64,000 bases of DNA from Candidatus Eisenbacteria bacterium (GTDB taxonomy: Bacteria; Eisenbacteria; RBG-16-71-46; JAFGJU01), in assembly GCA_026388185.1 (NCBI GenBank), contig JAPLKG010000008.1, forward strand, positions 470,863 through 534,862. The letters run 5' to 3'. Positions 13,554-48,093 of this stretch are shown here, piece after piece. Below the pieces are notes generated by a model. That model was not told the DNA's origin, did not search any database, and saw only the letters and a list, made by a program, of their open reading frames with translations. The translations under genes and the position numbers were made by a program. Position 1 is the first letter of the stretch. Every line of letters starts with the position of its first letter.

Positions 13554-13558
13554 GAGGA

Positions 13559-16555: not shown

Positions 16556-16605
16556 GAGGAAATGTGGGACGTTGAGACGTCCCGGACCCTGTGCTCACTT
16601 TTCGA

Positions 16606-16634
16606 TTGACGGAATGGAGCCCCGAAAGTACTCT
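16606..16634 (+). promoter_or_regulatory. Candidate promoter for asnS
   Basis: TTGACG at 16606-16611, 17-base spacer, TACTCT at 16629-16634, about 50 bases upstream of the asnS ATG. It is divergent from the promoter at 16527-16555. Confidence 0.45.
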
Positions 16635-16684
16635 CTTGAGAATCCGCGAATTCGTTCCGAGTCAATTAACGAGAGTGAGTAATC

Positions 16685-31544: not shown

Positions 31545-34483
31545 AGGTTCCCTCCGGTCTCCAAGTGGAGGGTTCCTCCGGGTCGACGCCTGGTTTCATT
31601 TCGGTGAGAGGGGCGAGGGAGCACAACCTCAAGAACATAGACGTCGACATCCCGAGGAACTCGCTCATCGTTGTGACGGGCGTGAGCGGCTCCGGAAAAA
31701 GCTCACTCGCTTTCGACACGATCTACGCCGAGGGCCAGAGGCGCTACGTCGAGTCCCTCTCCGCCTACGCGCGGCAATTCCTGGGCCAGATGGAAAAGCC
31801 CGACGTGGATTCCATCGAGGGGCTCTCTCCCGCAATCTCCATCGAACAGCGCACCGCAGGCGCAAACCCCCGTTCCACCGTGGCCACGGTCACGGAGCTA
31901 TACGACTACCTGAGGCTCATCTTCTCCAGACTGGGAGTGCAGCACTGTCACAAATGTGGCGCCCTGATAGGCGCCCAGACGCCTTCTCAAATCGTCGACT
32001 CGCTCATCGAGGTGGCGAACGGCAAAACCGTCCAGGTGATGGCTCCCATCGTGAGGGGCCGCAAGGGCGAATACAAAAAGGAACTGGACGCGGCGAGGAG
32101 ACAAGGGTTCCTGCGAGCGCGAATAGACGGAGAACTGGTCGAACTCGAGAAAGTCGAGGCTCTCAAGAAAACCAAGAAACACACGATTGACATTCTCGTG
32201 GACAGGCTCACGGCGGATGCAAAGAACCAGTCGAGACTGGTGGACTCCGTCGAAACGGCGCTAAAGGCGGCCGGGGGAGTTGTGAGTGTTCTGGTGGGTG
32301 GGGGCGGTGGAGCCGGCGGGGTGGGCGGAAGCGGCAAGGAAGGTTCGGGTGCCACAGCTGGTCGCGGCGGTCCCGCGAAGGAACTGCTGTTCAGCGAGAA
32401 GAGGGCGTGCGTTCGGTGCGGAATCGGCTTCGACGACTTAAAGCCCCGCAATTTCTCTTTCAACAATCCCTACGGCGCATGCTCCACGTGCGACGGCCTC
32501 GGCACGCGGCTTGAGATAGACCCGTCACTGGTCGTTCCGAACCCGACGCTCTCCATCTCGAAGGGCGCAGTCGCGGCCTGGGGAGCCTCCAGCTCCGTGT
32601 GGTTCAACAGCCAGATGCGGGCCCTGGCGAAGCACTACGATTTCGACTTGGACATGCCGTTTCAGGAGCTGCCCGAGCGCGTAAAGGAAATCATCCTCTT
32701 TGGAGCCGGGCACGACGAAGTCGAGTTCACCTACAAGAGCAAGAACTTCACGATGAAAGGGAAGAGGAAATTCCCGGGAATCGTCCACGATCTGGCGAGA
32801 AGATACAGGGCCACGACCTCGGGGGCCGTGAGAGACTGGTTGGACGGCTTCATGGCTCGGGGGCAATGCCCGGTGTGTGAGGGGAAGCGGCTTAAGCCCG
32901 AGAGCCTCGCCGTCACACTCAAGGGGCGAAACATCGCCGAGTACGCGTCTCTCTCCGTCAAGGAAGCCAAAGCACTCTTCGAGAAAATGGAGTTCCGAGG
33001 AAGCGAAATCCCCATTGCCGAACCCATACTCAAAGAAATCGTACAGAGACTCAAGTTCCTCTGTGACGTCGGCCTCGACTACCTCACGCTCGACAGAAAC
33101 GCTGCCACGCTTGCAGGAGGCGAGGCACAGAGATTGAGGCTCGCCACGCAGATAGGATCTAGGCTCAGCGGAGTGCTCTACGTTCTCGACGAACCGAGCA
33201 TAGGACTCCACCATCGTGACCAAAGGAGACTCCTCGGCACACTCTGCGAACTGAGAGACATGGGCAACACCGTTCTCGTCGTCGAGCACGACAGGGACAC
33301 GATTCTCTCAGCCGACCATGTGGTCGACCTCGGCCCGGGCGCCGGAGAGAGAGGCGGCTGGCTCGTCGCCACCGGAAAGCCGGCGGAGATTGCACAAAAC
33401 AGCGCGTCGCTCACGGGCCTCTACCTTTCGGGCAAGAAAGACGTTGAAGTACCTCGGACGAGGAGACGCCCGCAGGGCGCGTGCCTCACCGTGAAGGGCG
33501 CCGCCGCAAACAACCTGAAATCAATCGACGTGTCCTTCCCGCTCGGACTCTTCGTGTGTGTGACCGGCGTCTCGGGCTCGGGCAAGAGCACGCTAATAAA
33601 CGACATCCTATACAGAGCGCTCGCGCGTCATTTCTATTCGTCCCCGGAATCGCCCGGAAAACACAGGGCAATAGAAGGACTCCAGCACATCGACAAAGTC
33701 GTGGACATAGACCAGTCGCCGATAGGGAGAACCCCTCGATCAAACGCAGCCACGTACGTGGGCGCCTTCGGCTTCATGAGGTCACTTTTCGCTCAATTGC
33801 CCGAGGCCAAAGTGCGGGGATACTTGCCGGGGAGATTCAGCTTCAACGTGCACGGCGGCCGCTGCGAGGCGTGCCAGGGCGACGGCGTCGTCAAGATAGA
33901 GATGCACTTTCTCCCCGACGTTTACGTGACATGCGACACGTGCAGGGGCAAGCGATACAACCGCGACACCCTCGAAGTCCTCTACAAGGGGAAAAGCATA
34001 GCCGACGTCCTGGACATGACCGTCGACGCGGCGCACCAGTTCTTCCTCCAGATACCGCCCGTTCGGCGAAAGCTCGAGGCGCTCAACAACGTGGGCCTGG
34101 GCTATCTCCGGCTCGGACAGCCCGCCACGAGACTCTCCGGAGGCGAGGCCCAGAGAGTGAAGCTCGCGACCGAGCTTTCCAAGGTCGCCACCGGGAAGAC
34201 GCTCTACATCCTCGACGAACCCACGACAGGCCTCCATTTTGATGACGTGAGACTGCTGCTCCACGTCCTGACCCGACTCGTGGCCGCAGGCAACACCGTA
34301 ATCGTGATCGAACACAACCTTGACGTCGTGAAAGCGGCGGATCACATCATTGACCTCGGCCCCGAAGGCGGAGATGACGGCGGCCGCGTGGTTGCCCTCG
34401 GCACGCCCGAAGAGCTGGCCTCTTGTGCCGCCTCGCATACGGGGAAGGCCCTGAGGGATGTGGTGGGGGTGGGGGGAAAGTAG
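31541..34483 (+). CDS. uvrA: Excinuclease ABC subunit A (UvrA) with glycine-rich insert
   Basis: 980 aa from GTG 31541 (GTGA overlap with the previous stop). It is the damage-sensing ATPase of nucleotide excision repair. Two ABC domains are present: Walker [14 protein letters not shown] and [13 protein letters not shown], and the signatures [12 protein letters not shown] and [12 protein letters not shown]. Zinc-binding CxxC pairs are [22 protein letters not shown] and CDTCRGKR. Odd: about nt 32270-32390 encodes a glycine-rich low-complexity stretch ([19 protein letters not shown]...) before the CVRCG pair, which the family normally lacks. Confidence 0.93.
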
Positions 34484-34806
34484 GGTGTCGGCGTGGTGGT
34501 GACGTCAGTGGGGACGTGTGGGGTGAGGTGTACCGGAAGGGGTTTCACAGGTCTCTCATGAGACCAGGCGACATAGGCTGAGAAGCATTCTCGCTCACAA
34601 GGTTCACTCCCCGGTCAGGTGTACCCAGAGGACATTTCTCGCACAGTCCTCTCTGCCAAACGACCGAGCTCAGCCGCGGTTGGGCGGGTTTCTGATTCAC
34701 TTATGATAACTATCGGTCCAAACGGGGCCTGGAGCGAATGGTTATGTGGGGCTACACGTGGACTAGTTGGGCCAGCATATGTACCAATTGATTGGCTGGG
34801 GAGCTG
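34484..34806. other. Non-coding junction between uvrA and the cassette array
   Basis: 323 bases with no credible gene. It holds a GGTCTC/GAGACC palindrome (34550-34565) without a T-run, a short pair of inverted R-like boxes (34655-34685), and an attC-like inverted repeat (34704-34747). It marks the lower edge of the integron cassette array. Confidence 0.5.
34704..34747 (-). repeat. Possible attC after the ATPase cassette
   Basis: Read on the minus strand it runs from ACATAAC to GTTATCA. Arms ATAACCATTCGCTCCA and ATAACTATCGGTCCA (the latter as reverse complement) pair with one extra base on the 5' side. At 44 bases it is short for an attC and R' departs from GTTRRRY, so this is tentative. It ends about 60 bases beyond the stop of the C-terminal ATPase fragment. 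Confidence 0.4.
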
Positions 34807-35138
34807 CTAGCCCTTCCCGTATCGCCAACGTATGCCTCCGCACTGGCACTGAACCAACTCGGAGCCTTCGGCGTCGGCGAACCAGATTCCTTTACCACAC
34901 GATGGGCATTTGAAAGACTCGAGGGCCTTCTCACAAGCATCTATGAGCTTGGTGGCCTCAGAGCAAACGACGTCGAAGGTGTGGGAGGCACGGTTGGCCC
35001 ATGACATGAGTAGCTTGTCCGCTTTGTCCAGGGCATCGATCGCCTCTGTGTGAGTGACGTAGTGATTGTCCTCTTTCTTCTGGAAGGAGGATCTCTTGCC
35101 ATTCGCTAACAAGCGCTCCAAGAAGTCATGGGCCATCC
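34807..35138 (-). pseudogene. C-terminal fragment of IS-interrupted Rad50-like ATPase (zinc ribbon)
   Basis: The open frame encodes 109 aa from an apparent ATG at 35136: a helical stretch with WANRASHTFD, then a CPSCGK...CQCG zinc ribbon and the stop. This looks like the NxxSH plus FxC...C end of large SMC-like ATPases. It is not an independent gene. Removing the IS and one ATCC copy joins it in frame with residue 677 of the ATPase at 36303-38390, giving a 786-aa protein. The apparent ATG is an internal Met codon. It would be translated only by chance initiation. Confidence 0.85.
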
Positions 35139-35165
35139 TGACCTTCCCCCCGAAAACTGGTCCAG
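35139..35165 (+). repeat. Left terminal inverted repeat of the IS
   Basis: It matches the right end (36332-36357, reversed): TGACCT, six C, a five-base variable part, then CTG[G/A]TCCAG, with one extra T on the left. Confidence 0.85.
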
Positions 35166-35213
35166 TTGAGGCCTCGATTTTGGGGTAGTATTACCCTTAA
35201 GGAGGGACTGGAC

Positions 35214-35480
35214 ATGAAGGGTTCCCGGTACAGCGAGGAGCAGATAATCGGGATCTTGAAGGAGGTGGAGGCGGGACTGAAGGTGACGGAGGCGTGCCGG
35301 AAGTACGGGATGAGTGAGTGGACGTTTTACACGTGGCGGAAGAGGTATCGGGGATTGACGGTACCTGATGTCAGGCGTTTGAAGGGGTTGGAGGAGGAGA
35401 ATCGTCGTTTGAAGACATTGCTGGCGGAGACGGTGTTGGATAATCGGGCGTTGAAGGATGTTTTGTCAAAAAAATGGTGA
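35214..35480 (+). CDS. IS407-type transposase OrfA (HTH)
   Basis: 88 aa from ATG 35214, with an AGGAGG ribosome binding site. RYSEEQIIGILKEVEAG and CRKYGMSEWTFYTWRKRY form the helix-turn-helix. A leucine-rich helix (EEENRRLKTLLAETVLDNRALKD) for multimerisation follows. It ends SKKW-stop inside the frameshift window shared with orfB. OrfA alone typically represses; the OrfAB fusion is the transposase. Confidence 0.92.
   Translation: MKGSRYSEEQIIGILKEVEAGLKVTEACRKYGMSEWTFYTWRKRYRGLTVPDVRRLKGLEEENRRLKTLLAETVLDNRALKDVLSKKW
35468..35474 (+). promoter_or_regulatory. -1 programmed frameshift site (A AAA AAA)
   Basis: Seven A residues placed as A AAA AAA in the orfA frame just before TGG TGA. Slipping back one base continues as AAA AAA ATG into orfB. 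This is the usual way IS3-family elements make OrfAB. Confidence 0.8.
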
Positions 35481-36343
35481 GGCCCGCCGCGAGACGTGAC
35501 GTGGTGGGCTATTTGCGGGGTGGGTATGGGATGAGCGAGCGGCGAGCGTGTAACTTGATGGAAGTGCATCGGTCGACGTGTCGTTATCGAGTGAGAGCGG
35601 ATCGTAACCGGGAACTTCGGGAGGTACTGAGAAGGTTGGCTGAAGAGCGTTTGCGCTGGGGGCAGGATCGGTTACACGTGCTGCTGCGTCGGCTGGGGTA
35701 TGTGGTGAACCACAAGAGGACGGAGCGGTTATATCGTGAGCTCGGGTTGTCGTTGCGGCTTCGCAGGCGGCCCAAGCGAGTCAGCAGGGTGAGAGTGGTC
35801 TCGGCCTTGCCGGCGCGGCCGAACGAGCGGTGGAGCATGGATGTCATTCATGATCAGTTTGTGGCGGGACGTCGGTTCAAATGTTTGACGTTGGTGGATG
35901 ACTGCACACGTGAGTCGCCGGCCATCTCGGTAAGCTTATCGATCACTGGAGAAGGGGTTGCGGAGGCACTGGATCGGGTCGGGACTGAACGGCCGTTGCC
36001 TGGAGAGATCGTATGTGACAACGCGCCTGAGTTCAATAGTGCTGCTCTTGATCGCTGGGCCTATGAGCACGGCGTCAAGCTCAGTTTTATCGAACCGGGC
36101 AAGCCTGTTCAGAATGCTTTCATTGAATCGTTCAACGGGAAGTTCCGGGACGAGTGTTTGAGTCAGCAGTTGTTCTTTGACCTGACTGATGCGAGGGAGA
36201 AGATCGAAGCGTGGAGGAGAGACTATAACGAGGTCCGACCGCATCAGTCGTTGAAGAACCAAACGCCGAGAGAGTTTGCGAAGAAGTACGACGAGCAGCT
36301 GTCTAAAGAGGGAGAAACCGTGAGGTCACCCCTGGATCAGTAA
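35474..36343 (+). CDS. IS407-type transposase OrfB (DDE integrase core)
   Basis: 289 aa. An HTH_21-like region (LRWGQDRLHVLLRRLG) is followed by the rve integrase core with DDE residues in WSMDVIHDQF, CDNAPEF and ESFNGKFRDECL. It is complete; its TAA stop lies in the right inverted repeat. It is produced mainly as the OrfAB fusion through the slippery A7. Confidence 0.93.
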   Translation: MVRPAARRDVVGYLRGGYGMSERRACNLMEVHRSTCRYRVRADRNRELREVLRRLAEERLRWGQDRLHVLLRRLGYVVNHKRTERLYRELGLSLRLRRRPKRVSRVRVVSALPARPNERWSMDVIHDQFVAGRRFKCLTLVDDCTRESPAISVSLSITGEGVAEALDRVGTERPLPGEIVCDNAPEFNSAALDRWAYEHGVKLSFIEPGKPVQNAFIESFNGKFRDECLSQQLFFDLTDAREKIEAWRRDYNEVRPHQSLKNQTPREFAKKYDEQLSKEGETVRSPLDQ

Positions 36344-38390
36344 GAGGGGGGAGGTCAATCCTCCTGTCATTCTTGTCGGCGCGCAGGAAGGGTAGCCTGA
36401 TGTGGAGGCGCTCTGCGATGAGTGATAGTTCGATGTCCATGATCTTCCGCGCGTCATTTCCTGCTGAGTCTGGGCGCTTTTTGAGGTGGGCGCGGGCATC
36501 ACCGAAGGTCGTAGTCTTGTGCGACCAGCGGATACCGATATCCGGGGTCTCGTAAGGCAAGAGCGCTCTAAAGGTCCAGTTCTTACTGTCAAGCTGCTGG
36601 CGGAGTTCAGCGTACCACTCCCGGTCATGGGTTAGAAGTAGCACCTGCCTCCCGCTGAATTCCTTGTCCAGTACCTCCGCGATCATGCCTCGGTGGTTCC
36701 GGTCGAGGCTGACGACCACGTCGTCGAGTATGAGTGGCCGATCCTTGTCCGCTTCTCGCTTGGCCATGGCCAGGAAAATGCAGAGACCAAGACTGTTACG
36801 GTAGCCTTCGGAGAGCGTCAGTCTTGGGGAATTCTGCTTGACGCCGTAGAACTTAAGCCCTATGTCGATCGCTTTTTCAGCGTCTTTCGGGACGTAGAGA
36901 CAGACGGCCTCAATTGACTCTCCCGGGTGCAGGATTGCCCACAACGCCTGTATGTCTGTCGAGATTTCGTCGATCACGGTCTGCGAGCGCAACCTGATTT
37001 CGTCCCGGACACCCTGTTCAAGGGAGCTGAGGAACGACGTGAGGGCATGGGCGCGCGCCGCAGAAAGAGCCAGTTCTTTGGCCTCAATCACGGCCTCAGC
37101 AACCTCGGCTATCCGCTTGTCCGCCGATAGCTGCTCGACATCAGGAGGGGCGTGCTTTGAGGCGACATCGGCAGCGGTGGTCAGTGGAAGGAGCTTCTTC
37201 TCGATTGTTCTTAGCTTCTCTTCCCCACATGACGTGCGAAGTGCCTCGCCGTTGATCTGATCGAGGTATGCTGAGTTCTTAGCCAGGGGGCCTTTGGAAA
37301 GTTCATCCCGCCACGACTTGACATCGGCCTTGGCAAGGAGGGTCTTGAGGGACTTAACGCTGTCGCACAGAGCTGCGATAGCCCCCTTGCGGGTGTTGAA
37401 TGTGTCAATGACATCTTGGAGCCGTCTCCGCTCGGCCTCAATATGCGCCCTAAAGTCGTCGACTGGAATGGACTGCCCGCAGGCTGGGCACTCCACCTCT
37501 TCCTCGTCTCCTAGTTTCTCGACGAATTCGTCTGTCGATTGCAGCACCTCTAACTTCTCGGCGATCAACGGCTCGACCGCCTCGGCGAGTTTGGCATTGG
37601 CCGCGCGTACAGCGCCGACATGGCCTTTCAGGCCAACGTCGGCTGCATCCCGAAGAGCAAAATATCGCTTCTGCTCTTTAGAGAACCGTTTGACCAGTGT
37701 GTCGATAGCTGTCTCCAATTGCTTGCAGTAGGACATGTGGTCTCGTGTGGCAGCCTTGTCCGGGCAATACCTCGAGTGGAGTTCTTCAATCTTTTTGAGT
37801 ATCTGCTCGTCGCCGTCGGCGCCGAAAGTGAGCCTCCGCTTTCTTTCCACTTCCTGGAGAACGCCCTTGATTTCCTTGAGCTTCGCCTGCTGCTCGACGG
37901 ATTTAACGAGTTGCCGCAAGTTCTCTGCTGCCACCTCCATTTTGTGCAGCCCCAGAAGAGGAAGTAGAGCGGAGTACTTTCCTCCCTTTGTATCGTGAAC
38001 GAATGCCGCGACCTCGTCTTGGCGCAGGACGAGGCGCTGGTAGTCCCAGGTACCCATCGCGATTGTCTCAGCTCCTGAACAGATGGAGGACCCATCTGGC
38101 TTGATCTCGATTCGTAGTGTCACGTCATCCTTGAATATGATTCTTAGCTCAGTCTTTCTATTCTTGGGCTTGTGGGTGTTGGGGATTGCCCTCTCCTGGT
38201 GCTTGCCGCTGTACTCGTGGGCGAGATGTCCGATTCTGCCGCTGTTGAGCACATACTCAATGGCATCCACAAAGCATGATTTTCCTGAACCATTCTCCCC
38301 ATAAACGACTATGGATTTGCAGTTCGTTTCCAGCAAGACAGGATCGGCTGCGCCGCGAAACCACGCCAGTTGGATGCTCTTTATCCTCAT
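36303..38390 (-). CDS. Rad50/SMC-like ATPase, 3' end cut off by IS insertion
   Basis: 677 native codons (38390 down to 36360) plus 18 codons read out of the IS end. Walker A GENGSGKS lies at 31-38 and a Q-loop LVLRQDEVAAF near 120. A central coiled coil carries a Rad50-like CPAC zinc hook (Cys301, Cys304). An ABC signature-like LSEGYRNSLGL is followed by Walker B RPLILDDVVVSLDRN near 545-560. The missing end, with a second zinc ribbon, is at 34807-35138. It overlaps the upstream 70-aa gene by ATGA, so the two form one cassette. The role is unknown; such ATPases occur in anti-phage and DNA-end-processing systems (inference). The truncated product keeps both ATP motifs. Confidence 0.8.
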   Translation of the reverse strand: MRIKSIQLAWFRGAADPVLLETNCKSIVVYGENGSGKSCFVDAIEYVLNSGRIGHLAHEYSGKHQERAIPNTHKPKNRKTELRIIFKDDVTLRIEIKPDGSSICSGAETIAMGTWDYQRLVLRQDEVAAFVHDTKGGKYSALLPLLGLHKMEVAAENLRQLVKSVEQQAKLKEIKGVLQEVERKRRLTFGADGDEQILKKIEELHSRYCPDKAATRDHMSYCKQLETAIDTLVKRFSKEQKRYFALRDAADVGLKGHVGAVRAANAKLAEAVEPLIAEKLEVLQSTDEFVEKLGDEEEVECPACGQSIPVDDFRAHIEAERRRLQDVIDTFNTRKGAIAALCDSVKSLKTLLAKADVKSWRDELSKGPLAKNSAYLDQINGEALRTSCGEEKLRTIEKKLLPLTTAADVASKHAPPDVEQLSADKRIAEVAEAVIEAKELALSAARAHALTSFLSSLEQGVRDEIRLRSQTVIDEISTDIQALWAILHPGESIEAVCLYVPKDAEKAIDIGLKFYGVKQNSPRLTLSEGYRNSLGLCIFLAMAKREADKDRPLILDDVVVSLDRNHRGMIAEVLDKEFSGRQVLLLTHDREWYAELRQQLDSKNWTFRALLPYETPDIGIRWSHKTTTFGDARAHLKKRPDSAGNDARKIMDIELSLIAERLHIRLPFLRADKNDRRIDLPPLTDPGVTSRFLPL
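36332..36357 (-). repeat. Right terminal inverted repeat of the IS
   Basis: Reverse complement begins TGACCTCCCCCC and ends CTGATCCAG, pairing with 35139-35165. It is followed by the ATCC target duplication at 36358-36361. Confidence 0.85.
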
Positions 38391-38599
38391 TGCTTCGGCT
38401 CCGTCTTGGGTGGGGTGGGGACCATGTCAGCGATGAGTGCCTTCGCGATGCTTGTCAGCTTTGTCAGAGACAGCGGCTGCTCGCTGAGCCCACCACTGAG
38501 CAACTTCTCCATTCTTGAGGCGACAGCCTCGATCACAGATGCATGACCTTTGCGTGCTTCGGCGATACGGGACCTAATCCAACGAACCTCATTTGGCAT
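38387..38599 (-). CDS. Small helical protein coupled to the Rad50-like ATPase
   Basis: 70 aa from ATG 38599 with a TGAGGAGAAACC leader. Predicted mostly helical (VRWIRSRIAEARKGHASVIEAVASRM), with a Pro/Lys tail and no membrane segment. Its TGA overlaps the ATPase ATG (ATGA), which argues for a real partner gene. I recognise no family. Confidence 0.65.
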   Translation of the reverse strand: MPNEVRWIRSRIAEARKGHASVIEAVASRMEKLLSGGLSEQPLSLTKLTSIAKALIADMVPTPPKTEPKQ

Positions 38600-38670
38600 T
38601 GGTTTCTCCTCAGGGAACGCCTAGGAATGCTGGATGTGGTTGAAAGTACTCCCATGCTAGGTAACGGTGT

Positions 38671-38718
38671 GGCTCAACGACGCGAAATCCCACCGCGGAT
38701 TTTGCGTACAGTGGAGCC
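38671..38718 (-). repeat. attC-like site after the cyclase-like gene
   Basis: Minus strand: GGCTCCACTGTACGCAAAATCC pairs with the reverse complement of its 3' arm, GGCTCAACGACGCGAAATCC. R'' is GCTCCAC and R' is GTTGAGC, which fits GTTRRRY. It is short (48 bases), and it overlaps the last codons of the cyclase-like gene. Confidence 0.5.
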
Positions 38719-39465
38719 GCTTGTTCGCCGTTCCTGTTTCTTGATTACTTTCACCGCGTCATCAAAGAATGCGATGGTGTTGTAATACTTGCACTCTGTC
38801 TCTCGGGGGACTTGGTGCATTGCAAGAAACTCTAGGAGTTTTTCTCTTGGTCTTTCCCCATCGCGGCACGGTGATATTGATGGCACGAAGAATACCTTGG
38901 GCCAATTCACAGCCTTGACGCGAACTATCTTGACGTTCTTAAGGGGGATGTCGTAATCCGGCATGACGTTGCCCTTTGTCGCGGAGTCATGCTCTAACCA
39001 TCGCTGGATCATGATTGTTGCATGTGGTGTCGCATGGACTCCGCCGATCCACTCCGCTTTGTCGTACCAAGCTGCTGCGTCCGTGACGGCTTGTCCCATG
39101 ACGGTGTTTGTTGGATCGTCTACATAGAAGGAGCCGATGGAGATCGAGCCTCTCAGAAGTATCCGGTGCTGCATGGAGTCGACGAGAAACTTCCTGAGGA
39201 TTGCGAAAAAGGAAGTGATGTCATTGAGTTCTGGCGCTCGTGATCCGCACTTGAGTATAACAAGAATCGTATCGTTGAACGTGAATGTCGTGACGCGGTC
39301 GGAAGCGATCCTGCCAAGCACACCTTCGGTTTTCTGGTTGAGGAGTCTGAGGACATAGGATCGTGATTACAAAAAGCGTTCGACCTCGGCATCGTTGTAA
39401 GTGGCCGCGCCGAGCGCATCGAGTATTGCTACGATCCCGTTTTGCTGTTCGATTGGAGTTTTCAT
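38674..39465 (-). pseudogene. Nucleotidyl-cyclase-like gene with in-frame TAA
   Basis: One frame of 263 codons, from ATG 39465 just after an attC core, to TGA at 38674. Codon 33 (39367-39369) is TAA; the frame continues on both sides without a shift. The N-terminal piece GIVAILDALGA holds the first metal-site Asp expected in class III cyclase folds. After the stop come TFNDTILVI, which may carry the second Asp, and RGSISIGSF with GQAVTDAAAWY, typical of cyclase-like domains. Restart at GTG 39321 would give 215 aa without the first Asp. It is therefore probably a recent nonsense allele. Exact enzyme activity is unknown. Confidence 0.65.
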
Positions 39466-39479
39466 CTGTTCATCTTCTC

Positions 39480-39547
39480 GGCGAACATCAACATGAGCCG
39501 TTCTGCGGAGCACAGTGAGCAGAATCGGCTCCATGTGATGGTTCGGT
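39480..39547 (-). repeat. attC site (cassette junction)
   Basis: Minus strand: R'' ACCGAAC, L'' CATGGAGCCG; L' CGGCTCATG, R' GTTCGCC. The L arms pair except for one extra G on the 5' side, the classical attC mark. 68 bases. The next gene starts 15 bases after R'. Confidence 0.8.
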
Positions 39548-39552
39548 CTTTG

Positions 39553-40521
39553 TCATGGTCTCCAGTAATATTTCGCATCTTTTACTGTAAATGTTCTGTT
39601 CAAATCTTCTGCATTGGAGATTTCAATTAGTTGTTTCTGTATGAGATAACCTATGAAACAATTCTTGAGCAATTCATATGTACTTGTCCGAAATAGTGGG
39701 AATCCTATATGGGCCAGTAAAGATTTCCATTTAGCTCTATTGCCAGCGATGAAATCAAAAGCATGAGATTCAGTAAATTTTCCTCGTTTGCAATCTTCCC
39801 ATGTGTAAACATAGGAAAGGTGATTCATGAAGTCGATGGAAAAGCGAGTCGAACAAACCTCTTGTACCCGTCTCCGGAGAAGGAGGTTTTCAATATATTG
39901 TTTTAGGGTTAAGAACAACATCGTCACGAAAAGTACAAAAAGAGTCATCTTGATGGTGGCTGGAGAAAAAGGCGAATACTGAGAGATGAAATCTGATGTC
40001 TCCTTGACCTTGTTCATCGCAGGCATAAGTGCACCGAGCATGAAGACGAGCCCGAGAGAAGCTAAGCTTCCTGGTGTCGGCTTATACAGCTTTTCGAGAT
40101 TTCGGCGCTCTTCTTGAAAGCGAGCATCTTCCTTTCTCTTGAGTTCATCTTTCAGTTGCTCGATCTCAAACTCACCGCATTCAATGCGGTGCTTAAGGCG
40201 CTCAATCTCCTTATTTGCCTCGTCAAGCTCGTGTTGTGTGAACACGTTGTCATAGATGGGCCTGTATAGCATTAATTCTGCGGGTGTTCTGCGAATTGCC
40301 TCATCTTGAATGAATCGGAACAGTTCTGGCATCAGTTCCTGCGCAGCCTTGAAGCGTGCTTCAGCGGTTTTCTTTGACTCCGCGTCAACAAACCTATCTG
40401 GATGAATGTGATGACAATATTCCCGGAGCCGCGAATGAAGTTCGATGGGGCTACATTCATCCCGCATGTTTAAGAGATCACGCACCCGTTGGATAATGCT
40501 CTTTTGAATGGAATTGTTCAT
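39553..40521 (-). CDS. J-domain-like membrane protein
   Basis: 322 aa from ATG 40521 (GGGAGAGAA upstream). A GTG at 40545 lies inside the attC and is not the start. An N-terminal J-like domain has the HPD motif at His40-Pro41-Asp42. A coiled coil spans about 85-150, with two membrane helices at about 158-176 and 190-210. A cytosolic C-terminal region of about 110 residues matches nothing I know. J-domains recruit DnaK/Hsp70. The DNA here is clearly more AT-rich than the core genes. Confidence 0.7.
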   Translation of the reverse strand: MNNSIQKSIIQRVRDLLNMRDECSPIELHSRLREYCHHIHPDRFVDAESKKTAEARFKAAQELMPELFRFIQDEAIRRTPAELMLYRPIYDNVFTQHELDEANKEIERLKHRIECGEFEIEQLKDELKRKEDARFQEERRNLEKLYKPTPGSLASLGLVFMLGALMPAMNKVKETSDFISQYSPFSPATIKMTLFVLFVTMLFLTLKQYIENLLLRRRVQEVCSTRFSIDFMNHLSYVYTWEDCKRGKFTESHAFDFIAGNRAKWKSLLAHIGFPLFRTSTYELLKNCFIGYLIQKQLIEISNAEDLNRTFTVKDAKYYWRP

Positions 40522-40533
40522 TCTTTCTCTCCC

Positions 40534-40590
40534 GCCGAACGTCACGGGCGAGCGGCAAGACTTTCCGTCCGCTCCAGCCGGAGATTCGGT
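40534..40590 (-). repeat. attC site (cassette junction)
   Basis: Minus strand: R'' ACCGAAT, L'' GGCTGGAGCGG; L' CCGCTCGCCC, R' GTTCGGC. The L arms differ by one extra base on the 5' side. 57 bases. Confidence 0.75.
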
Positions 40591-40593
40591 AGT

Positions 40594-41292
40594 TCATTTC
40601 TCTTTTGGTTGATCACCCTGTCTTGTCACCACATTGGGTGGAAACTGGGGTTTCTTAGTTGGCTCAGCGGGTTTCGTAGGTTGCTGTGGCACCTTTGGCT
40701 GATCTTCAGACATATTTCCTCCCGGGGGTTTCTCTGTTTGAGTGAAATTGACGGTCTCAATCCGTTGCACATCTCGGGGACGTCGCGCCTCGCTCACAGT
40801 GAATGGGACCGCGCTCAGAGCCATGAATATGACTCCAAGTACTAGACCTATATTTGCCCTGTACAGGAAGGCAGCTCTGGAGATGTTGTTCTCCATGTTG
40901 ACGCTTGCGGCTTCCGCATAACTTCGTTCGAGTTCATCTTCAAACTCTTTCTCAGCTTCTGACTCTGACCTGTTCAAAGCACGGTAATACGCCTTGTTGT
41001 TTGTGGAATACGCTAGCAGGTCGTTACAGGATGGTAGGACCAAATACTTGTAACGGTGCATGACTCGTACAATGTAGTAGAACGCTGCGATTAGGGCAAG
41101 AAAAGCTGCGAGCACACAGACAAGAAAGATGTAGGTCAAGTAGCCTGAAGAGTAGGCGAACAGTTTCACAAACGAAAAAGCTACCCCAGTGAGGCCAGTT
41201 AGCACCGCTATGGGTAGCGTAACTGCACCTTCGATCTGTTGTCTGCGGTTGAGCTCAAAGTAATATTGCTCTTTCATCAAATCAACGCTCAT
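40594..41292 (-). CDS. Three-helix membrane protein, SLATT-like layout
   Basis: 232 aa from ATG 41292 (ATG 41277 is an alternative; the GTG at 41316 falls in the attC). Two adjacent N-terminal helices (about 22-42 and 48-72), a charged helical middle (SESEAEKEFEDELERSYAEA), a third helix near 165-182 and a proline/lysine-rich tail. Paired N-terminal helices plus a coiled coil resemble small membrane effectors such as SLATT proteins, but I cannot assign a family. Confidence 0.65.
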   Translation of the reverse strand: MSVDLMKEQYYFELNRRQQIEGAVTLPIAVLTGLTGVAFSFVKLFAYSSGYLTYIFLVCVLAAFLALIAAFYYIVRVMHRYKYLVLPSCNDLLAYSTNNKAYYRALNRSESEAEKEFEDELERSYAEAASVNMENNISRAAFLYRANIGLVLGVIFMALSAVPFTVSEARRPRDVQRIETVNFTQTEKPPGGNMSEDQPKVPQQPTKPAEPTKKPQFPPNVVTRQGDQPKEK

Positions 41293-41314
41293 GGGATTTC
41301 GACCGCTTAGAATC

Positions 41315-41375
41315 ACCGAACGCCAGCAATAACCTGGCGCCGCGCAGCGACGCTCAGGTTATTGTCTTGTCCGCC
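41315..41375 (-). repeat. attC site overlapping the stop of the preceding gene
   Basis: Minus strand: R'' GGCGGAC (degenerate), L'' AATAACCTGAGCG; L' CGCCAGGTTATT, R' GTTCGGT. The arms contain perfect CAATAACCTG/CAGGTTATTG repeats with one extra A on the 5' side. The TAA of the 41359 gene lies inside the 5' arm. Confidence 0.7.
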
Positions 41376-42219
41376 CTTTTTCTCTCGATGAATCAAGAGA
41401 CTCGATCATCTTCGTGATCAACCTTGCCGTACAGGCGAGTTGTGCGCATGCCACTTTGGCCGAGAAATCTTGCCAGGTCGCAAGATTTCTGAAAACCCCA
41501 CCCTGATTCAGCGGAGAGTCTTGAACAAGAGAATAGAAAGTCTTAAGAATTCCCGCGTGTTCGCCGTTGATCACAGGGACTACCACGGGCTGTTTCCTCA
41601 GCGCATCAGCCATTCGTGTCGCATACACGTACTGGCGGATGAGTTGGTATGTGTCTTCCCAGTCTTTGAGGCTCTCCAGTTCTACGAACCCTGACACCTT
41701 CGCGTAGGATCTCATTCGGCGCATAGCACCGCTTTCCTTGCCGTTAGATCTATTTGTTTGTGCCTTCCAAGGTGATTGGCCGCCGTTGAGGTTTAGTTTG
41801 CACTCGACGAAAGCGACCTCGCCCTCGGTCACAAGCACAAGATCGGGCTCAGTCATAGTGCCCCTGAGTTGCCCGTCAACGGTTCTGATGAGGATGCTTA
41901 GGAGTTGCTGGATCTCACTATGCTTCTCAACATCACATCCCCAGAACAGGACGGATTCGACAGCTGAAAGACCGAGCACCTCAGATACCACTTGAAGGCC
42001 CCTTGGGCCTTCAATCTGGAGGCTGCGGAAGACGTTCCATGTCATGGCGTCTTCACTGTTGGCCACACCGAGGTAAGCCTTGCCTCCATCCTTTCCCGGC
42101 TTCCAGAGGCTCTCGCCTGCGAAGTGGTCACGCCATGCCTTCTGGATAAGTACGGGATTGTGCGGGTCGGCGATGAGATTTGTTCGAAAGTCATACTGCG
42201 CGAGGTGTTCCGGTATCAT
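41359..42219 (-). CDS. Possible PD-(D/E)XK nuclease-fold protein
   Basis: 286 aa from ATG 42219 (AGAGAAGAC upstream). An upstream GTG at 42255 lies in the attC. The stretch EPDLVLVTEGEVAFVECKLN has the D-x(n)-ExK spacing of PD-(D/E)XK nucleases. The rest is soluble, mixed alpha/beta. A nuclease role is inferred from this motif alone. Confidence 0.65.
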   Translation of the reverse strand: MIPEHLAQYDFRTNLIADPHNPVLIQKAWRDHFAGESLWKPGKDGGKAYLGVANSEDAMTWNVFRSLQIEGPRGLQVVSEVLGLSAVESVLFWGCDVEKHSEIQQLLSILIRTVDGQLRGTMTEPDLVLVTEGEVAFVECKLNLNGGQSPWKAQTNRSNGKESGAMRRMRSYAKVSGFVELESLKDWEDTYQLIRQYVYATRMADALRKQPVVVPVINGEHAGILKTFYSLVQDSPLNQGGVFRNLATWQDFSAKVACAQLACTARLITKMIESLDSSREKGRTRQ

Positions 42220-42236
42220 TTCTTTGTCTTCTCTCT

Positions 42237-42300
42237 GGTGAACGGTGGGGCTCACCCTCGGGATGCACAGCGGACTGGCGGGTGGAGCGGCTGGTTATGG
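42237..42300 (-). repeat. attC site (cassette junction)
   Basis: Minus strand: R'' CCATAAC, L'' GCTCCACCC; L' GGGTGAGC, R' GTTCACC. One extra C on the 5' side. The R boxes are degenerate relative to RYYYAAC/GTTRRRY. 64 bases. Confidence 0.6.
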
Positions 42301-42327
42301 CTCGTGACATAGATGCCCAATGCTGAC

Positions 42328-43518
42328 TCACCTCCGCCACCGAAAAGCGGCGAGCCTACGTACTTGTTTCGCACCATCCGGGCCAGTGATTGAAAGCGCC
42401 TGTCTCTGGGCATCGAGGAGCCACCTGGACATGGATGGGCGTATGACCTGTTTCCGGCTGGGGCGAGCAGCGACTCCCTGAATGAGAAACGAAAGAAGCG
42501 GTGCGGCCTGGCGGTCCAGGGCGAGACGAGATATCAGAGAAGTCAGCCACTGATAATCAAGCAAGAGCGGTTCGCGAAACTTAAACAAGAGACTATCCGC
42601 TACGATCCGCGTGAGATCATCCGTGGCTATGGAAGTCAGGGCCCTAGGATTCTGTGTCGTCCTGCGGAAGAAGGCTCGCTTGTGCGTCCTAGCATAGTCC
42701 CCTAGGGCGCGACCCCGACTTAAAGGGACGAGCAGGCGACCGACTGCCCGCATTGACTCGGGGCGTCGATCTCTCTCCAGCTGTGTCATCCGACCGATGA
42801 CATAATCCCACGGCTTGAGGTGACGCCGGGAGCCCCGCGAGCCGCCGGAGGATGAGGGCATGGATGTGCCGACGGGGGAACCAACCAACATGTGCCTGAC
42901 CGTCCTGCCCAAGGCAAAGATGTCACCCCTAGCATCGACAGATTGCGGATCCTGGGCTTGCTCGGGCGGGAGGTAGTATAGCGTGCCCAGCATGGAGTCC
43001 TCACCGCAAGTGAAAGTATGCCAATCCGCGATTCGGCACATCCCAAAGTCTGCGAGCTTGGGATGGCCATTGGTGGCAAAGAGGATGTTGGCAGGCTTGA
43101 TATCGCGGTGCACTATGCCTGTGTTGTGGGCATATTGCAGGGCCGAACATATGGGCCACAGTATATCCAGTACGGCTTGCTGTCTCATGGGCCCATTCTC
43201 AATCATCTTCTCGAGGGATCCGCCCCCGCAGAACTCCATGACATAATACGGATTGTCTGCGTTGACGTTGCAGTCGTATATGGGCACGATGCTCGGGTGG
43301 TTCAGCCTGATCATCGCCTGAACTTCGCGAATGAAGCGTTGCTTGTGTCGGTCCAACGACGCCTTGGCTGCAGGAGCTTCCTCGCGAAGTGGCCTGAGAG
43401 ACTTCAGTACGAGTCTCTGGCCAGACAGCCGATCGAGAACGAGGAACGTGACCGCTACCGAGCCCGATTCAACTTGCCGTATCACCTGATAGTGCTCGTC
43501 AATGAGTCTCTCTGCCAT
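42328..43518 (-). CDS. Ser/Thr protein kinase with unknown C-terminal domain
   Basis: 396 aa. The Hanks-type kinase domain (about 10-270) has ATP-binding Lys39 (VLK), HRDIKPAN with catalytic Asp139, and DFG with Asp157; an activation segment leads to YYLPPEQ. The glycine loop is weak (VESGSVAVTF). Residues 290-396 form a helical region I do not recognise, with no membrane helix, unlike housekeeping PknB-type kinases. ATG 43518 follows about 70 bases after the cassette start. Kinases in accessory islands can take part in phage defence (for example Stk2), but this is only a guess here. Confidence 0.88.
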   Translation of the reverse strand: MAERLIDEHYQVIRQVESGSVAVTFLVLDRLSGQRLVLKSLRPLREEAPAAKASLDRHKQRFIREVQAMIRLNHPSIVPIYDCNVNADNPYYVMEFCGGGSLEKMIENGPMRQQAVLDILWPICSALQYAHNTGIVHRDIKPANILFATNGHPKLADFGMCRIADWHTFTCGEDSMLGTLYYLPPEQAQDPQSVDARGDIFALGRTVRHMLVGSPVGTSMPSSSGGSRGSRRHLKPWDYVIGRMTQLERDRRPESMRAVGRLLVPLSRGRALGDYARTHKRAFFRRTTQNPRALTSIATDDLTRIVADSLLFKFREPLLLDYQWLTSLISRLALDRQAAPLLSFLIQGVAARPSRKQVIRPSMSRWLLDAQRQALSITGPDGAKQVRRLAAFRWRR

Positions 43519-43593
43519 CCTGATGTTCCCCCCTAGAGTGCTGCGAGGCGGCTCCGCATGCCCACTGGACCGTGCCGAAGCTCACCAGAGTAG

Positions 43594-43652
43594 CTGTAAC
43601 GTCGCAAATCAGCGGCGCGGTTTACCGCGTACGCTGGATCTGTCTGGCTCGG
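43594..43652 (-). repeat. attC-like site overlapping the end of the Macro-TIR gene
   Basis: Minus strand: R'' CCGAGCC, L'' AGATCCAGCG; L' CGCTGATTT, R' GTTACAG. The L arms pair with one extra C on the 5' side, and the central hairpin GCGGTAAACCGC supplies the variable stem. The TGA stop is part of L'. The R boxes are poor, so confidence is moderate. Confidence 0.5.
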
Positions 43653-44643
43653 CCGTTCCGTTCTTGTGGATCTTCTGCTTCACATACGTAGGTACCTCTC
43701 CTAGCTCCGGTTCCGTGTCGCAATCGAAAATGCACAGCACAAGTTCTTTGAGCCTTTCAGGATCTATGTCTGACTCTTTGCCCCAGTCAAAGGCGTACTT
43801 TGACTTCATATAAATTGGAAGGGCTTCATCGGCAGCATCTTCACGGATGATGGCAATGTACTTCCGTTTGTTATCGCCTTGAGCAAGCATGTCGCCTTGA
43901 ATGACCATTGTCTCCCAGCCCACCCCCCCTTTTCGGAAATCCGCCTTCTCCATGTAGTACTTGTCGCAGACAAGTAGCACCTTCTCCGCCATGATGACCT
44001 CATTTGCCATCCATTGTGGAAGGTCAAATCCGGGTTTCAAGTGAAATGCATCAAGACGTGCGTCCACCCCGTGTTCGCGTAACGCTGTGGCCAGCAACTT
44101 GACCCAAGATGCGTTGTTCTTGTTGGTTCCAGTGTAACTAATGAATACCCTTGGGTGAGGAATTGGCTTCTCTTCCGACGCGACCTTACGGGCGGCAGAG
44201 AGGTTCCGATATGCCTCACGCGTGAAGCAGAACACGTTGAAGATGATGTCCTTTTCTGCGGCAAGAATGGACCGGAGGGCCTCAAAGGAATCCACAGGTG
44301 TCATTCCTCCGGCACCCGATCCAAGGAGAGGGATATTGACTATTCTAATCTGATTCGCGGTCGCATAGCGGACAATTTCCCCTGCGATTTGGCTGATTGC
44401 CTCCGCTTCAGACGTGATCGTGTTCGCGTTGACCGATGCAGCGTATCCAATCGTACTGGCGAACTCATACCTTGACTCTCGGAAGTGAACCTTTCCATAT
44501 GGAATGTGGCCGACCATCGTGGGCAGACCGCGTTCGTGAAGGTTCGTGTATACCGAGTGAGTCACCCCCCCACCGCTGTCACACGGAACGATCAGGAGGT
44601 CGCATTTTGAGTCAAAGATGCTGCCATGAATGAGATGTATCAT
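43609..44643 (-). CDS. Macro domain-TIR domain fusion protein
   Basis: 344 aa. Residues 1-155 form a Macro domain (NAD-metabolite/ADP-ribose binding): LIVPCDSGGGVTHSV and the phosphate loop IPLLGSGAGGMTP. Residues 163-330 form a TIR/SEFIR-like domain: RVFISYTGTNKNNASWVKLL, LDAFHLKPGFDLPQWM and the GGVGWE block, with Glu244 about 81 residues into the domain, where NADase TIRs carry the catalytic Glu. Bacterial TIRs make NAD-derived signals, and in type II Thoeris the Macro and TIR domains are on separate proteins. ATG 44643 lies directly after the attC core. The 3' end carries a charged tail encoded within the attC. Confidence 0.88.
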   Translation of the reverse strand: MIHLIHGSIFDSKCDLLIVPCDSGGGVTHSVYTNLHERGLPTMVGHIPYGKVHFRESRYEFASTIGYAASVNANTITSEAEAISQIAGEIVRYATANQIRIVNIPLLGSGAGGMTPVDSFEALRSILAAEKDIIFNVFCFTREAYRNLSAARKVASEEKPIPHPRVFISYTGTNKNNASWVKLLATALREHGVDARLDAFHLKPGFDLPQWMANEVIMAEKVLLVCDKYYMEKADFRKGGVGWETMVIQGDMLAQGDNKRKYIAIIREDAADEALPIYMKSKYAFDWGKESDIDPERLKELVLCIFDCDTEPELGEVPTYVKQKIHKNGTAEPDRSSVRGKPRR

Positions 44644-44655
44644 CGATTTCCTCTT

Positions 44656-44716
44656 GCCGAACGTCGCCGTTCACCGGCTCGGCGAAGCCGAGTCCGTGTG
44701 CAGCGGCTGGTTCGGC
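44656..44716 (-). repeat. attC site (cassette junction), best preserved
   Basis: Minus strand: R'' GCCGAAC, 5' arm with GCCGCTGCACACGG, a palindromic tip CTCGGCTTCGCCGAG, L' CCGGTGAACGGC, R' GTTCGGC. R boxes are perfectly complementary. One unpaired G lies in the 5' L box. 61 bases. Confidence 0.88.
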
Positions 44717-44739
44717 ATGATGACTAGCTCATCCCGTGA

Positions 44740-45768
44740 TTAGTCTTCACTCCCAATGTCCATATGTAGCAACAGCACGGCAATATCGCCCTCGAAACTC
44801 ATCTCGACACTTCGTTCATCAACCGGGAAGTCAATCGCCCGTCCTAGGTTAGCGGTGCGAATCAAGCGAGTGGCGAAGGAGTCGACCTCTGGATTTGCGG
44901 TCGCCCCACGCCAACAAGTGAATTCCCCTATGTTGATCTGAGTCCACCCTCGGATGAAATCGTAGAGGTCGCGAGCGAAGTGGAGGTTGCCCAAGAAGGG
45001 GATGCCAAGCCCGACGCCTGGCCATGGAACGGGTCCGATTCTACGCATAACATCGCGAAGGATGAAGTAATACTCATCTGGGTCAAGACCCGGAAATGGA
45101 ACAGGTCCACTCGCGAAGCTTGACTGCAGTCCACCCTGCTGAAGAACACTTGGGAAACTCACGTCTGCCGGCTCCAGCGTCGAGCTCTGTGCCAAGAACT
45201 CTGCAAGGAGTGGTGCTGATGCGAAGATCATCTCGCCTGGTTCAGAGAGGAGCCCGAATGCTCCAAGACAACCAGTGGAATTCCGGAACACGACATCATC
45301 CATGCCGCGGAATATACCGCGATTGCCGGTGAAAGGCGGGAAGTTCTTGAGCAGGAACAATTGCTCTGCGTCTATGCCCCAATTCTGGTTCTTCGCCTTT
45401 TTGTTTTGGATAATACACACACGCTCAACAAGCCGGCGCTTTCCCGCCGTCACAATGGAGATCGCAACCATATCTCCTAGTTCTCTAGTAGTGGGCTTGT
45501 CGCGAAAGTTGAACTCGACGTACGAGCGCGGGCCATGGATCTTGTTTGCCGCTATGTGGATCAGTCTGCCATACGACTTCTCGTTAATCGCGGTGACGAG
45601 TCTCGTGATGATCGAAACTTCATTCTCAGCGGATGCATATGCTTGGCTGAGGGCATCGTAGGCGGCACGGACAACCCCGTTCTGGAAGTTGACAAAGTCG
45701 GTGTCATGGGCCAACTGTGCGGCAATTTCAAAGAACCTACGCATACTCGGTTTCCCTATTCTTCTCAT
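44740..45768 (-). CDS. Unknown cassette protein, possible PD-(D/E)XK fold
   Basis: 342 aa, soluble. ATG 45768 lies eight bases beyond the attC. TTRELGDMVAISIV followed by RVCIIQNKKAK has the GD...QxKK pattern seen in some PD-(D/E)XK-like nucleases; the remainder (NRGIFRGMDDVVFRNS, PDEYYFILRDVM) is unfamiliar. The next attC follows just after the stop at 44740. Function not assigned. Confidence 0.6.
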   Translation of the reverse strand: MRRIGKPSMRRFFEIAAQLAHDTDFVNFQNGVVRAAYDALSQAYASAENEVSIITRLVTAINEKSYGRLIHIAANKIHGPRSYVEFNFRDKPTTRELGDMVAISIVTAGKRRLVERVCIIQNKKAKNQNWGIDAEQLFLLKNFPPFTGNRGIFRGMDDVVFRNSTGCLGAFGLLSEPGEMIFASAPLLAEFLAQSSTLEPADVSFPSVLQQGGLQSSFASGPVPFPGLDPDEYYFILRDVMRRIGPVPWPGVGLGIPFLGNLHFARDLYDFIRGWTQINIGEFTCWRGATANPEVDSFATRLIRTANLGRAIDFPVDERSVEMSFEGDIAVLLLHMDIGSED

Positions 45769-45776
45769 TCTGTCGT

Positions 45777-45864
45777 GCCGAACGCGCGGGGTCAGCTGCG
45801 GCGCGGCTCGCGCCAGACGTTGTTATTGCCTCGGCGCCCCGGCCGCTGGAGCCCGAAGTTAGGC
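45777..45864 (-). repeat. attC site (cassette junction)
   Basis: Minus strand: R'' GCCTAAC (perfect RYYYAAC), L'' GGGCTCCAGC; L' GCTGACCCC, R' GTTCGGC. One extra base on the 5' L arm sets the orientation. 88 bases. Confidence 0.85.
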
Positions 45865-45871
45865 TTCAATC

Positions 45872-46303
45872 TCATACGTTACCTATGAGGGCCAAGGATA
45901 AGAACCAGAACACCATGAACATGATGTAGAGGCCCTTGGTCGCACGAAACATGAGGTTCGATCTAGGTCTCTCCTCCATGGTGTTGTACTGGAGGAGCCT
46001 CTCCAGCTCCCGGGCCTTCTCCTGATAGTAACGAATGAGCTGTTCGAGGCGCCGCTCGTAGCCGAAGAAGACGAAGGTAACGCCCAGCCCGATCACTCTG
46101 AATGCGATGAGCACGGAGTGCGTGACACCCTTCTCCGGCGAAATAAGTCCGAAGGCCGCTGAAACCGCGGCCGCTGAGACGGCAAAGTAAACAGAGACCA
46201 TGACAAAGCGAAGAGAACTGTAGTGGCGAAGATAGAGATTCGCTTCCGTGTACTCTTGATCCCGATGAGGTTGGATGGGTGTGTTCTGGAGAGTGCCCGA
46301 CAT
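45872..46303 (-). CDS. Small membrane protein, first cassette
   Basis: 143 aa from ATG 46303, which has a strong GGGAGAA site; an in-frame ATG at 46342 lies outside the cassette core. Two central helices (VMVSVYFAVSAAAVSAAFGL and VLIAFRVIGLGVTFVFFG), a charged coiled coil (RRLEQLIRYYQEKARELERL) and a C-terminal helix (LYIMFMVFWFLSLALIG). I recognise no family. Its stop is eight bases from the attC. Confidence 0.65.
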   Translation of the reverse strand: MSGTLQNTPIQPHRDQEYTEANLYLRHYSSLRFVMVSVYFAVSAAAVSAAFGLISPEKGVTHSVLIAFRVIGLGVTFVFFGYERRLEQLIRYYQEKARELERLLQYNTMEERPRSNLMFRATKGLYIMFMVFWFLSLALIGNV

Positions 46304-46325
46304 GGTTTCTCCCGAGTCTGATGAA

Positions 46326-46332
46326 GCCCAAC
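46326..46332 (-). repeat. Lone integron core site GTTGGGC
   Basis: GTTGGGC on the minus strand fits GTTRRRY exactly and sits 22 bases before the first cassette gene, where a cassette boundary is expected. I found no matching R'' or L arms within 150 bases upstream. It could be an attI-like core or the remnant of a lost attC. Confidence 0.45.
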
Positions 46333-46633
46333 TACTGGTCATGCCGTTTCGAGATAAGTACCTTTAGAACGTCTTCTCTTCCGGATAACACTCACGGTTT
46401 AGTGGTCTCTATCTATCTCGGCCTTATGCACCTATGCTCAATTGTGAGAACTGCCTCGGTCTTATGCGGGTTCCGTCCATAACCGGGTGTTTTGTCGTAG
46501 AATTCAATCCGTGACGGTCCTGCCCGTTGCCTTTTCATTCTCGGTACACTCGCCGGTGAAGACGTGTATTTTGCCTGAGCGCGCAACTGTTGGTTCTGCC
46601 GCTGCCGATGGAGCAGTCGCGTTCAACCTTTGA

Positions 46634-46662
46634 AAGATATCACACAATGTACATCATGTCAA
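46634..46662 (-). promoter_or_regulatory. Candidate promoter reading into the cassette array
   Basis: Minus strand: TTGACA (plus 46657-46662), 17 bases, TATCTT (plus 46634-46639), about 330 bases before the first cassette gene. Position and direction are those of an integron Pc promoter, but no intI is present. Confidence 0.5.
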
Positions 46663-46744
46663 TCGTTTAATCAGCCTTCATGTTGGCATGTCACGTACAT
46701 GGTTTGGTCACTGTTTTCTCGCGTCACAGGCACAAAATAACAAG

Positions 46745-46773
46745 TTGATTTGTAGAGGCGCCGTAGCTATATT
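46745..46773 (+). promoter_or_regulatory. Candidate promoter for the L,D-transpeptidase
   Basis: TTGATT at 46745-46750, 17 bases, TATATT at 46768-46773. The coding start follows about 180 bases later. Confidence 0.4.
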
Positions 46774-46950
46774 GTCGTTCTGGTAGAGCCACGCTTCCAA
46801 CGGGACGAGTGCAAGAACTTGAAGAAAATGATGGCTCGGACGCTCAGCGCCTTACCGCTAGGCGGAAGCGTCAATCTTCTTGTCTGAGAACGCAGGTGGG
46901 GATCTGTGCGGCGGTCCGGCTGACGCACCAGGATTGGGGTATTACAGGAA

Positions 46951-48093
46951 TTGACTAGTGTGATTGAACGGCGTCAACGGCTGGGGTTTCTGATTCTCAC
47001 CGTTTTCCTTGCCTTGAACCTGTTATCTATTGGCATGGCTGCAGCGCCGGTCCCTCCAGCGGAGGCCGAACCGCCTGCATCGGTGGCGTCGCGACCACCG
47101 GCAGAGTCTCTACGGGGAGCGCCATCCTTCTCATGCACCAGCGCGACTGCAGTGTCACCTGAACCCGCAACGTCCCCAGCATCGCCGTCGTCGCCACCTC
47201 CTGAAAAGCCGCTTCGGCTGGTGCCACCCTCACCTCCTGCAACCCCGCCTTCCCCGGAGCTGTCCCCATGGGGAGCGCCGTCCTTCGTGCCATCGCCTCG
47301 CATTGCCGGTGAGGCGCAAACGTGCACCCTCGCGGTTGGGGAGGGGCTGTACGCCGTGTGTCGGCAGCGCGGGCTCTCGCACTCGGCTGTTGCCCGCGCC
47401 AACCGCATCGCCGATCCCAATATTGTGCAGTTGGGCAAGGTGCTGATCCTCCCCACTCGATACATCTTACCTGCGGTGCGAGACGAAGGGGTGGTCGTCA
47501 ATATCCCCGAGTACCGCCTTTACCTGTTCCGTGGGGGAGCGCTTCGCGCAGTCTATCCAATCGCAGTCGGCCTGCCGACGTGGCAGACGCCGTTGGGTTC
47601 CTTTACCGTGACTTGCAAGGTGAAAAACCCGGCCTGGTACATGCCGCCGGAGTTGGCGGAGCGCGAGCACGTCAAGCGTGAAATCATACCGGCTGGACCG
47701 GAGAATCCTCTGGGAGACTTCTGGATCGGGATTTCCTTGAAACACGTCGGAATCCACAGCACGAACTCTCCCATGACGGTGGGGCGCGCGCTGAGTCACG
47801 GGTGCATGCGCCTGTACCCCGAGCACCTCGATGTGCTGAGCACGGAGGTCACGGTTGGCGAATCAGGCGAGATTCTCTACTTGCCTGTGAAAGTCGCCCT
47901 TGAGGGAGACGATGTGTTGGTGGAGGTTCATCCCGACGTTTATGGTCTTGTGCCTAACCTTGGCAAGGCAGCCCAGGAACGTCTCAAGGCTCTCGGTGTG
48001 TGGGAAAGGGTGGACATTGCACTTCTCCGTCGCGCAATCTTCGAGGCCCGAGGCATCCCCGTTGCTGTCAACGTTTCCGCCAACACGCAGTAG
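46951..48093 (+). CDS. LysM and YkuD L,D-transpeptidase
   Basis: 380 aa. An N-terminal signal sequence (FLILTVFLALNLLSIGMAA), a long proline/serine-rich linker (about 30-125), one LysM peptidoglycan-binding motif (about 128-175), and a YkuD catalytic domain with HVGIHST and the SHGCMRL active site Cys. It forms 3-3 cross-links in peptidoglycan or attaches proteins to it. Starts TTG 46951 and GTG 46960 are both possible. Confidence 0.88.
   Translation: MTSVIERRQRLGFLILTVFLALNLLSIGMAAAPVPPAEAEPPASVASRPPAESLRGAPSFSCTSATAVSPEPATSPASPSSPPPEKPLRLVPPSPPATPPSPELSPWGAPSFVPSPRIAGEAQTCTLAVGEGLYAVCRQRGLSHSAVARANRIADPNIVQLGKVLILPTRYILPAVRDEGVVVNIPEYRLYLFRGGALRAVYPIAVGLPTWQTPLGSFTVTCKVKNPAWYMPPELAEREHVKREIIPAGPENPLGDFWIGISLKHVGIHSTNSPMTVGRALSHGCMRLYPEHLDVLSTEVTVGESGEILYLPVKVALEGDDVLVEVHPDVYGLVPNLGKAAQERLKALGVWERVDIALLRRAIFEARGIPVAVNVSANTQ

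Follow-up and report, generated by a model that had tools for sequence, protein, structure and literature searches.

The window analysed here is a stretch of 64,000 nucleotides from a MAG (2.62 Mb in 20 contigs, 97.86% complete) for which the closest genomes with a name are MAGs of Candidatus Eisenbacteria, in agreement with the original prediction that the host is not a proteobacterium. At 34655–46331 it holds a run of minus-strand genes arranged as nine cassettes, designated A to I, each closed by a predicted attC site; the array edges proposed earlier, 34655 and 46332, were right to within one base. The array has a GC content of 53%, compared with 58–59% in its flanks. In a related genome (L062, the bin56 chromosome), the order of a TPR gene, uvrA, gcvT, gcvH and gcvPA is kept with none of the cassette genes in place, so that the array represents an accessory region inserted after the divergence point of uvrA from the gcv genes in the gene order, with uvrA on one side and the gcv genes on the other. 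The right-flank gene at 46951–48093 was also considered as a marker of the empty site but proved too poorly conserved in the relatives, and uvrA and the gcv genes were used. The genes of cassettes C and E were absent from all 46 same-class relatives.

All cassette genes lie on the minus strand. Cassette A encodes a small membrane protein (45872–46304) with a weak 8xMP match below the cut-off (E 7.9e-5), for which the second ATG, right past the GTTGGGC box that opens the array, is the likelier start. The 342-aa product of cassette B (44740–45768) belongs to no family, and its AlphaFold model, made without an alignment, was uninformative (mean pLDDT 33). Cassette C (43609–44643) combines a macro-like N-terminus, sub-threshold, with a TIR/SEFIR region (Pfam TIR_2, 2.5e-12; PADLOC bSEFIR, 1.5e-49), and cassette D (42328–43518) encodes a Ser/Thr protein kinase (Pfam Pkinase, 8.6e-40; PADLOC PD-T4-6, 4.5e-52), kinase matches such as the latter not being specific. 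Cassette E (41359–42219, read from the ATG past R') carries the gene of a REase-ARP-like nuclease (Pfam REase-ARP, 1.1e-8, above the cut-off); neither B nor E had plasmid homologues at E <= 1e-5. The membrane protein of cassette F (40594–41292) is weakly PycTM-like (PADLOC, 9.8e-4), and the product of cassette G (39553–40521) is a probable coiled-coil and transmembrane protein with weak J-domain similarity, all matches being below the cut-off. The gene of cassette H (38674–39468) is likely broken, with one in-frame TAA in its translation, and had no family match in the profile scan; by eye, the frame resembles a nucleotidyl-cyclase-type protein.

Cassette I begins with a gene of 70 aa (38387–38599, from the open reading frame list), whose stop overlaps the start of the main gene (34807–38390). 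The latter encodes an SMC/RecN-like ATPase, with LmuB as its best PADLOC match, followed by a C-terminal zinc-ribbon-like part, and is interrupted by an IS3-family insertion on the plus strand (35139–36357; NCBIfam transpos_IS3, 6.9e-66) with an ATCC target duplication at 35135–35138 and 36358–36361. After discounting the IS and one 4-bp copy of the target, the two halves share one frame; the open reading frame at 34807–35136, previously taken for a separate gene or cassette, is the C-terminus of the gene at 36303–38390, split in frame by the IS3 element.

The profile scans gave no confident family for A, B, G or H and recognised no antibiotic-resistance cargo among the array genes. The cargo, expected to be mostly of unknown families, is not wholly so, as several genes resemble candidate defence families in Pfam and PADLOC. 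Judged by domain similarity, it tends towards candidate genes for phage defence.

The cassette ends were searched with a covariance model of our own (CM R1), distinct from the attC_4 model of IntegronFinder and trained on 15 attC sites from plasmid records, mostly class 1 integrons, and 11 attC sites from same-class genomes that carry IntI; none of the training sites came from the window. Within 34655–46331 the model matched the ends of all nine cassettes, every one on the minus, gene-sense strand, which bears out the eight or nine junctions claimed, eight in the gaps between cassettes and one past the last gene. When all 64 kb were searched on both strands with filters off, the top seven matches in the window were all cassette ends, at 16.6–33.8 bits, and the best match outside the array reached 10.5 bits. 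Since their scores exceed this background, seven sites are significant alone: site 1 (45777–45864, 33.8 bits), site 2 (44656–44716, 30.1 bits), site 5 (41315–41375, 28.5 bits), site 6 (40534–40590, 21.7 bits), site 7 (39480–39547, 33.2 bits), site 8 (38659–38729, 16.6 bits, overlapping the end of gene H) and site 9, the last (34655–34747, 22.3 bits, with the uvrA stop approximately 170 bp away). The two weakest ends, site 4 (42237–42300, 10.6 bits) and site 3 (43593–43653, 10.2 bits, overlapping the end of gene C), ranked eighth and eleventh, level with the background, and were accepted for their position, hairpin and matching boxes; site 4 scored 25.3 with the plasmid-trained PWM. The original prediction had staked its reading on at least two attC sites being detected by such a model, and seven clear the background.

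PWMs derived from the plasmid sites alone, or from the relatives alone, likewise gave several window junctions the highest scores. However, the PWM also yielded single high scores in some shuffled sequences, and the case therefore rests on the covariance model and on the box matching described below. Two simpler searches were discarded: a loose IUPAC pattern for L' and R' was useless genome-wide, since the reversed control matched more often, and a simple hairpin score based on AAC and GTT told just the best sites apart from shuffled sequence and was replaced by the PWM and covariance model trained on outside sites. A scan against Rfam gave no match at E <= 1, and a BLASTN search with site 2 against plasmids returned chance matches only.

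In gene sense, the junction boxes read, for example, GCCGAAC CAGCCGCTGCAC...GTGAACGGCGAC GTTCGGC, and the window sites follow the R''/L''/L'/R' layout with a conserved register and a hairpin. The shared architecture claimed earlier stands in these respects; as to its details, the extrahelical L'' base could be read in most of the site alignments but is absent from site 5, the R'' cores of sites 5 and 6 are GAC and AAT rather than AAC, and site 3 has a degenerate R'', GCCGAGC, at 43647–43653. The register of this last box involved judgement, as did the choice of the box opening cassette A. That box, an R'-type GTTGGGC on the minus strand at 46325–46331, forms the 5' end of cassette A and was picked after the fact; it pairs 4/4, with one wobble, with the R'' closing the cassette, GCCTAAC. 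The degenerate R'' of site 3 similarly pairs at 4/4 positions with the opening box of cassette C. Genes had been said to start with ATGs just past R', and this is so, at roughly 9–76 bp, when the likelier ATGs are used, but some open reading frame starts at a first GTG overlap R'.

IntI cuts between the G and the TT of R'. Given this cut (G^TT), the TTRRRY with which a cassette opens and the R'' at its tail come from one circle and should pair, and R'' and R' within one site need not pair past the core. In the window array, 29.5 of 36 head and tail box positions were paired, compared with 18.7 expected with shuffled partners (permutation, p 1e-4), and the matching persisted without cassette A, for which the head box had been picked post hoc (p 6e-4). 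Pairing of R'' with R' within the same site was no better than chance (17/36). Such head-tail matching is a mark of integrase-made cassettes and is not expected of an operon. Genes that are co-oriented and partly defence-like might otherwise have pointed to an ordinary defence island, or an operon, whose intergenic hairpins or terminators arose by chance, but this leaves the conserved register of the sites, the strand bias, the matches to independent models and the pairing of heads with tails without a cause. The operon reading was rejected on the basis of the PWM and covariance model results together with the box matching, and we regard it as extremely improbable.

The search for further attC sites in the rest of the genome, which had been proposed with the original prediction, yielded a second and larger integrase-less array of 15 attC sites on the plus strand (L124, G000:C14:72000-91999, at 5525–17465). 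Its boxes show the same head-tail matching (p 5e-5), and its cargo includes PIN and ParB-like matches, weak HNH and PD-(D/E)XK matches and many genes without a family. Smaller clusters comprise four sites (L128 on C17, 4217–7862) and two sites (L127 on C11, 17024–18780), and single attC sites lie at L125 7694, L126 6813 and L129 7944. In the model search, no attC precedes the first cassettes of L124 and L127, which begin at a box that matches the R'' of the same cassette; no exact opening box was found for the singles at L125, L126 and L129.

The claim that no intI is visible held when the search was extended to the whole genome, as had also been suggested. No IntI above the curated cut-off of TIGR02249 was found in the 2.62 Mb of assembled sequence, the best stretch scoring 94 bits versus 265. 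The best match to the IntI profile in the genome skips profile positions 168–237, where the IntI-specific patch lies, and none of the genome's seven tyrosine-recombinase domains comes near the IntI cut-off. The closest to the profile is a 301-aa tyrosine recombinase (L052, at approximately 3253–4053), without a match to the middle part, on a 14-kb contig (G000:C1) with two tyrosine recombinase genes. Beside the array, no IntI remnant was detected in 34000–47500 with five IntI sequences of relatives as queries. Next to the head of the array, upstream of cassette A at the place expected for intI and attI, lie 620 bp without a clear gene (46332–46950); reading the sequence here for boxes showed the opening GTTGGGC alone. 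No intI thus adjoins the array, as one would in a complete integron.

A CALIN is defined as a set of at least two attC sites with no intI next to them (PMC9024848). With nine attC sites and no IntI above the curated cut-off in the genome, the window array is a CALIN, as originally proposed, and the stretch at 34655–46331 is almost certainly made up of nine co-directed cassettes, each closed by an attC, that were joined by an IntI now absent from the genome. The enzyme would join cassettes one by one, recombining attC sites, folded in single-stranded form, at the G^TT of R'. We infer that capture was most likely the work of an IntI that either was lost after building the array or acted from elsewhere, whether from a since-lost locus or as a gene on a mobile element.

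A 2021 review describes three routes to a CALIN (PMC8618304): cassettes may be inserted by an IntI at another place, intI may be lost, or sequences may be rearranged. The loss of intI suits the present case because no intI was found, and an IntI at another place suits it because attC sites are spread over several loci. In the former variant, a complete sedentary integron would once have occupied the interval from uvrA to the gene at 46951, with intI deleted from 46332–46950. The sharp beginning of the array at GTTGGGC, adjoining 620 bp without a clear gene, agrees with this, as do the decay features, which fit a long absence of the integrase; yet neither a remnant of IntI in 34000–47500 nor an attI was recognised, and several separate attC loci are not simply explained by one lost integron. 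We give this variant a chance approaching even. In the latter, cassettes would have been put at secondary sites in trans by the IntI of another locus, a plasmid or a transient element. At least four clusters and three single attC sites in one genome without IntI speak for it, together with the mixed attC lengths and boxes and with the first cassettes of L124 and L127, which open without a preceding attC. On the other hand, the three singles lack an exact opening box and the genome contains no IntI source, and this variant is a serious candidate at somewhat below even chances.

Since the MAG is in 20 contigs and 97.9% complete, and arrays are hard to assemble, an intI may lie in an assembly gap, the integrase being present in the cell and missing from the assembly. 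With the array inside a 535-kb contig, no intI nearby and most of the genome assembled, this is quite unlikely. Whichever way the integrase went, the array built by it looks inactive and decaying, a reading based on the three altered R'' boxes, the IS insertion and the in-frame stop; single cassettes could still excise if an IntI arrived.

The source integron had been described as unknown, and this is now partly answered by similar attC sites in IntI-bearing integrons of the same class. Strong TIGR02249 matches (E <= 1e-40) occur in 14 of the 46 same-class relatives, above the cut-off in 13, and attC sites occur in at least 21 of the 47 genomes of the class, host included, a lower bound obtained with stricter filters and a limit on the number of candidates scored. 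One relative (L035, G029:C20) has an IntI together with a series of long attC sites, similar to one another, on the same contig, and at least 22 attC sites in its genome under strict filters. The list of integron carriers in a 2021 review omits Eisenbacteria (PMC8618304), and literature searches, mostly without subscription journals, returned no paper naming both Eisenbacteria and integrons. CALINs are already known as a kind of element; what is new is the lineage of the host and how many integrase-less clusters one genome holds. With these results, Eisenbacteria join the lineages that carry integrons and their cassettes, and a genome that has at least four attC clusters yet no integrase lends itself well to testing how CALINs form and persist. 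The cargo is in turn a source of candidate defence genes, in which several genes of unknown families accompany those of the TIR/SEFIR, kinase, nuclease and SMC-like types. A wider possibility, which we consider rather unlikely, is that Eisenbacteria are an unlisted integron lineage in which intI-less arrays persist at several chromosomal loci, are built and reshuffled by integrases from outside the genome, and serve as a shared store of candidate defence genes.

Compared with known systems, the window sites share with the cassettes of class 1 mobile integrons (L055–L060) the R''-5 nt-L''...L'-R' layout, the extrahelical base and the G^TT core, whereas the array is chromosomal, lacks IntI1 and has no recognised resistance cargo. 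Archaeal integrons, mostly CALINs in MAGs, are likewise integrase-less and far from Proteobacteria, but they belong to another domain and their attC recombination was tested, while the window sites are predicted from sequence (PMC9668308). The IntI-bearing integrons of the same class (for example L035, L039 and L048) have similar attC sites, with a GTTCGG-type R' in two of them; unlike the host, they keep an IntI match, and several have longer attC sites (95–116 nt in L035). CALIN elements as defined for IntegronFinder share with the window array the co-oriented accessory cassettes and the absence of an intI next to their two or more attC sites, of which almost 6 are reported per element on average (PMC9024848). 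The window array differs from these in its nine sites, in being one of several clusters in its genome and in its Eisenbacteria host.
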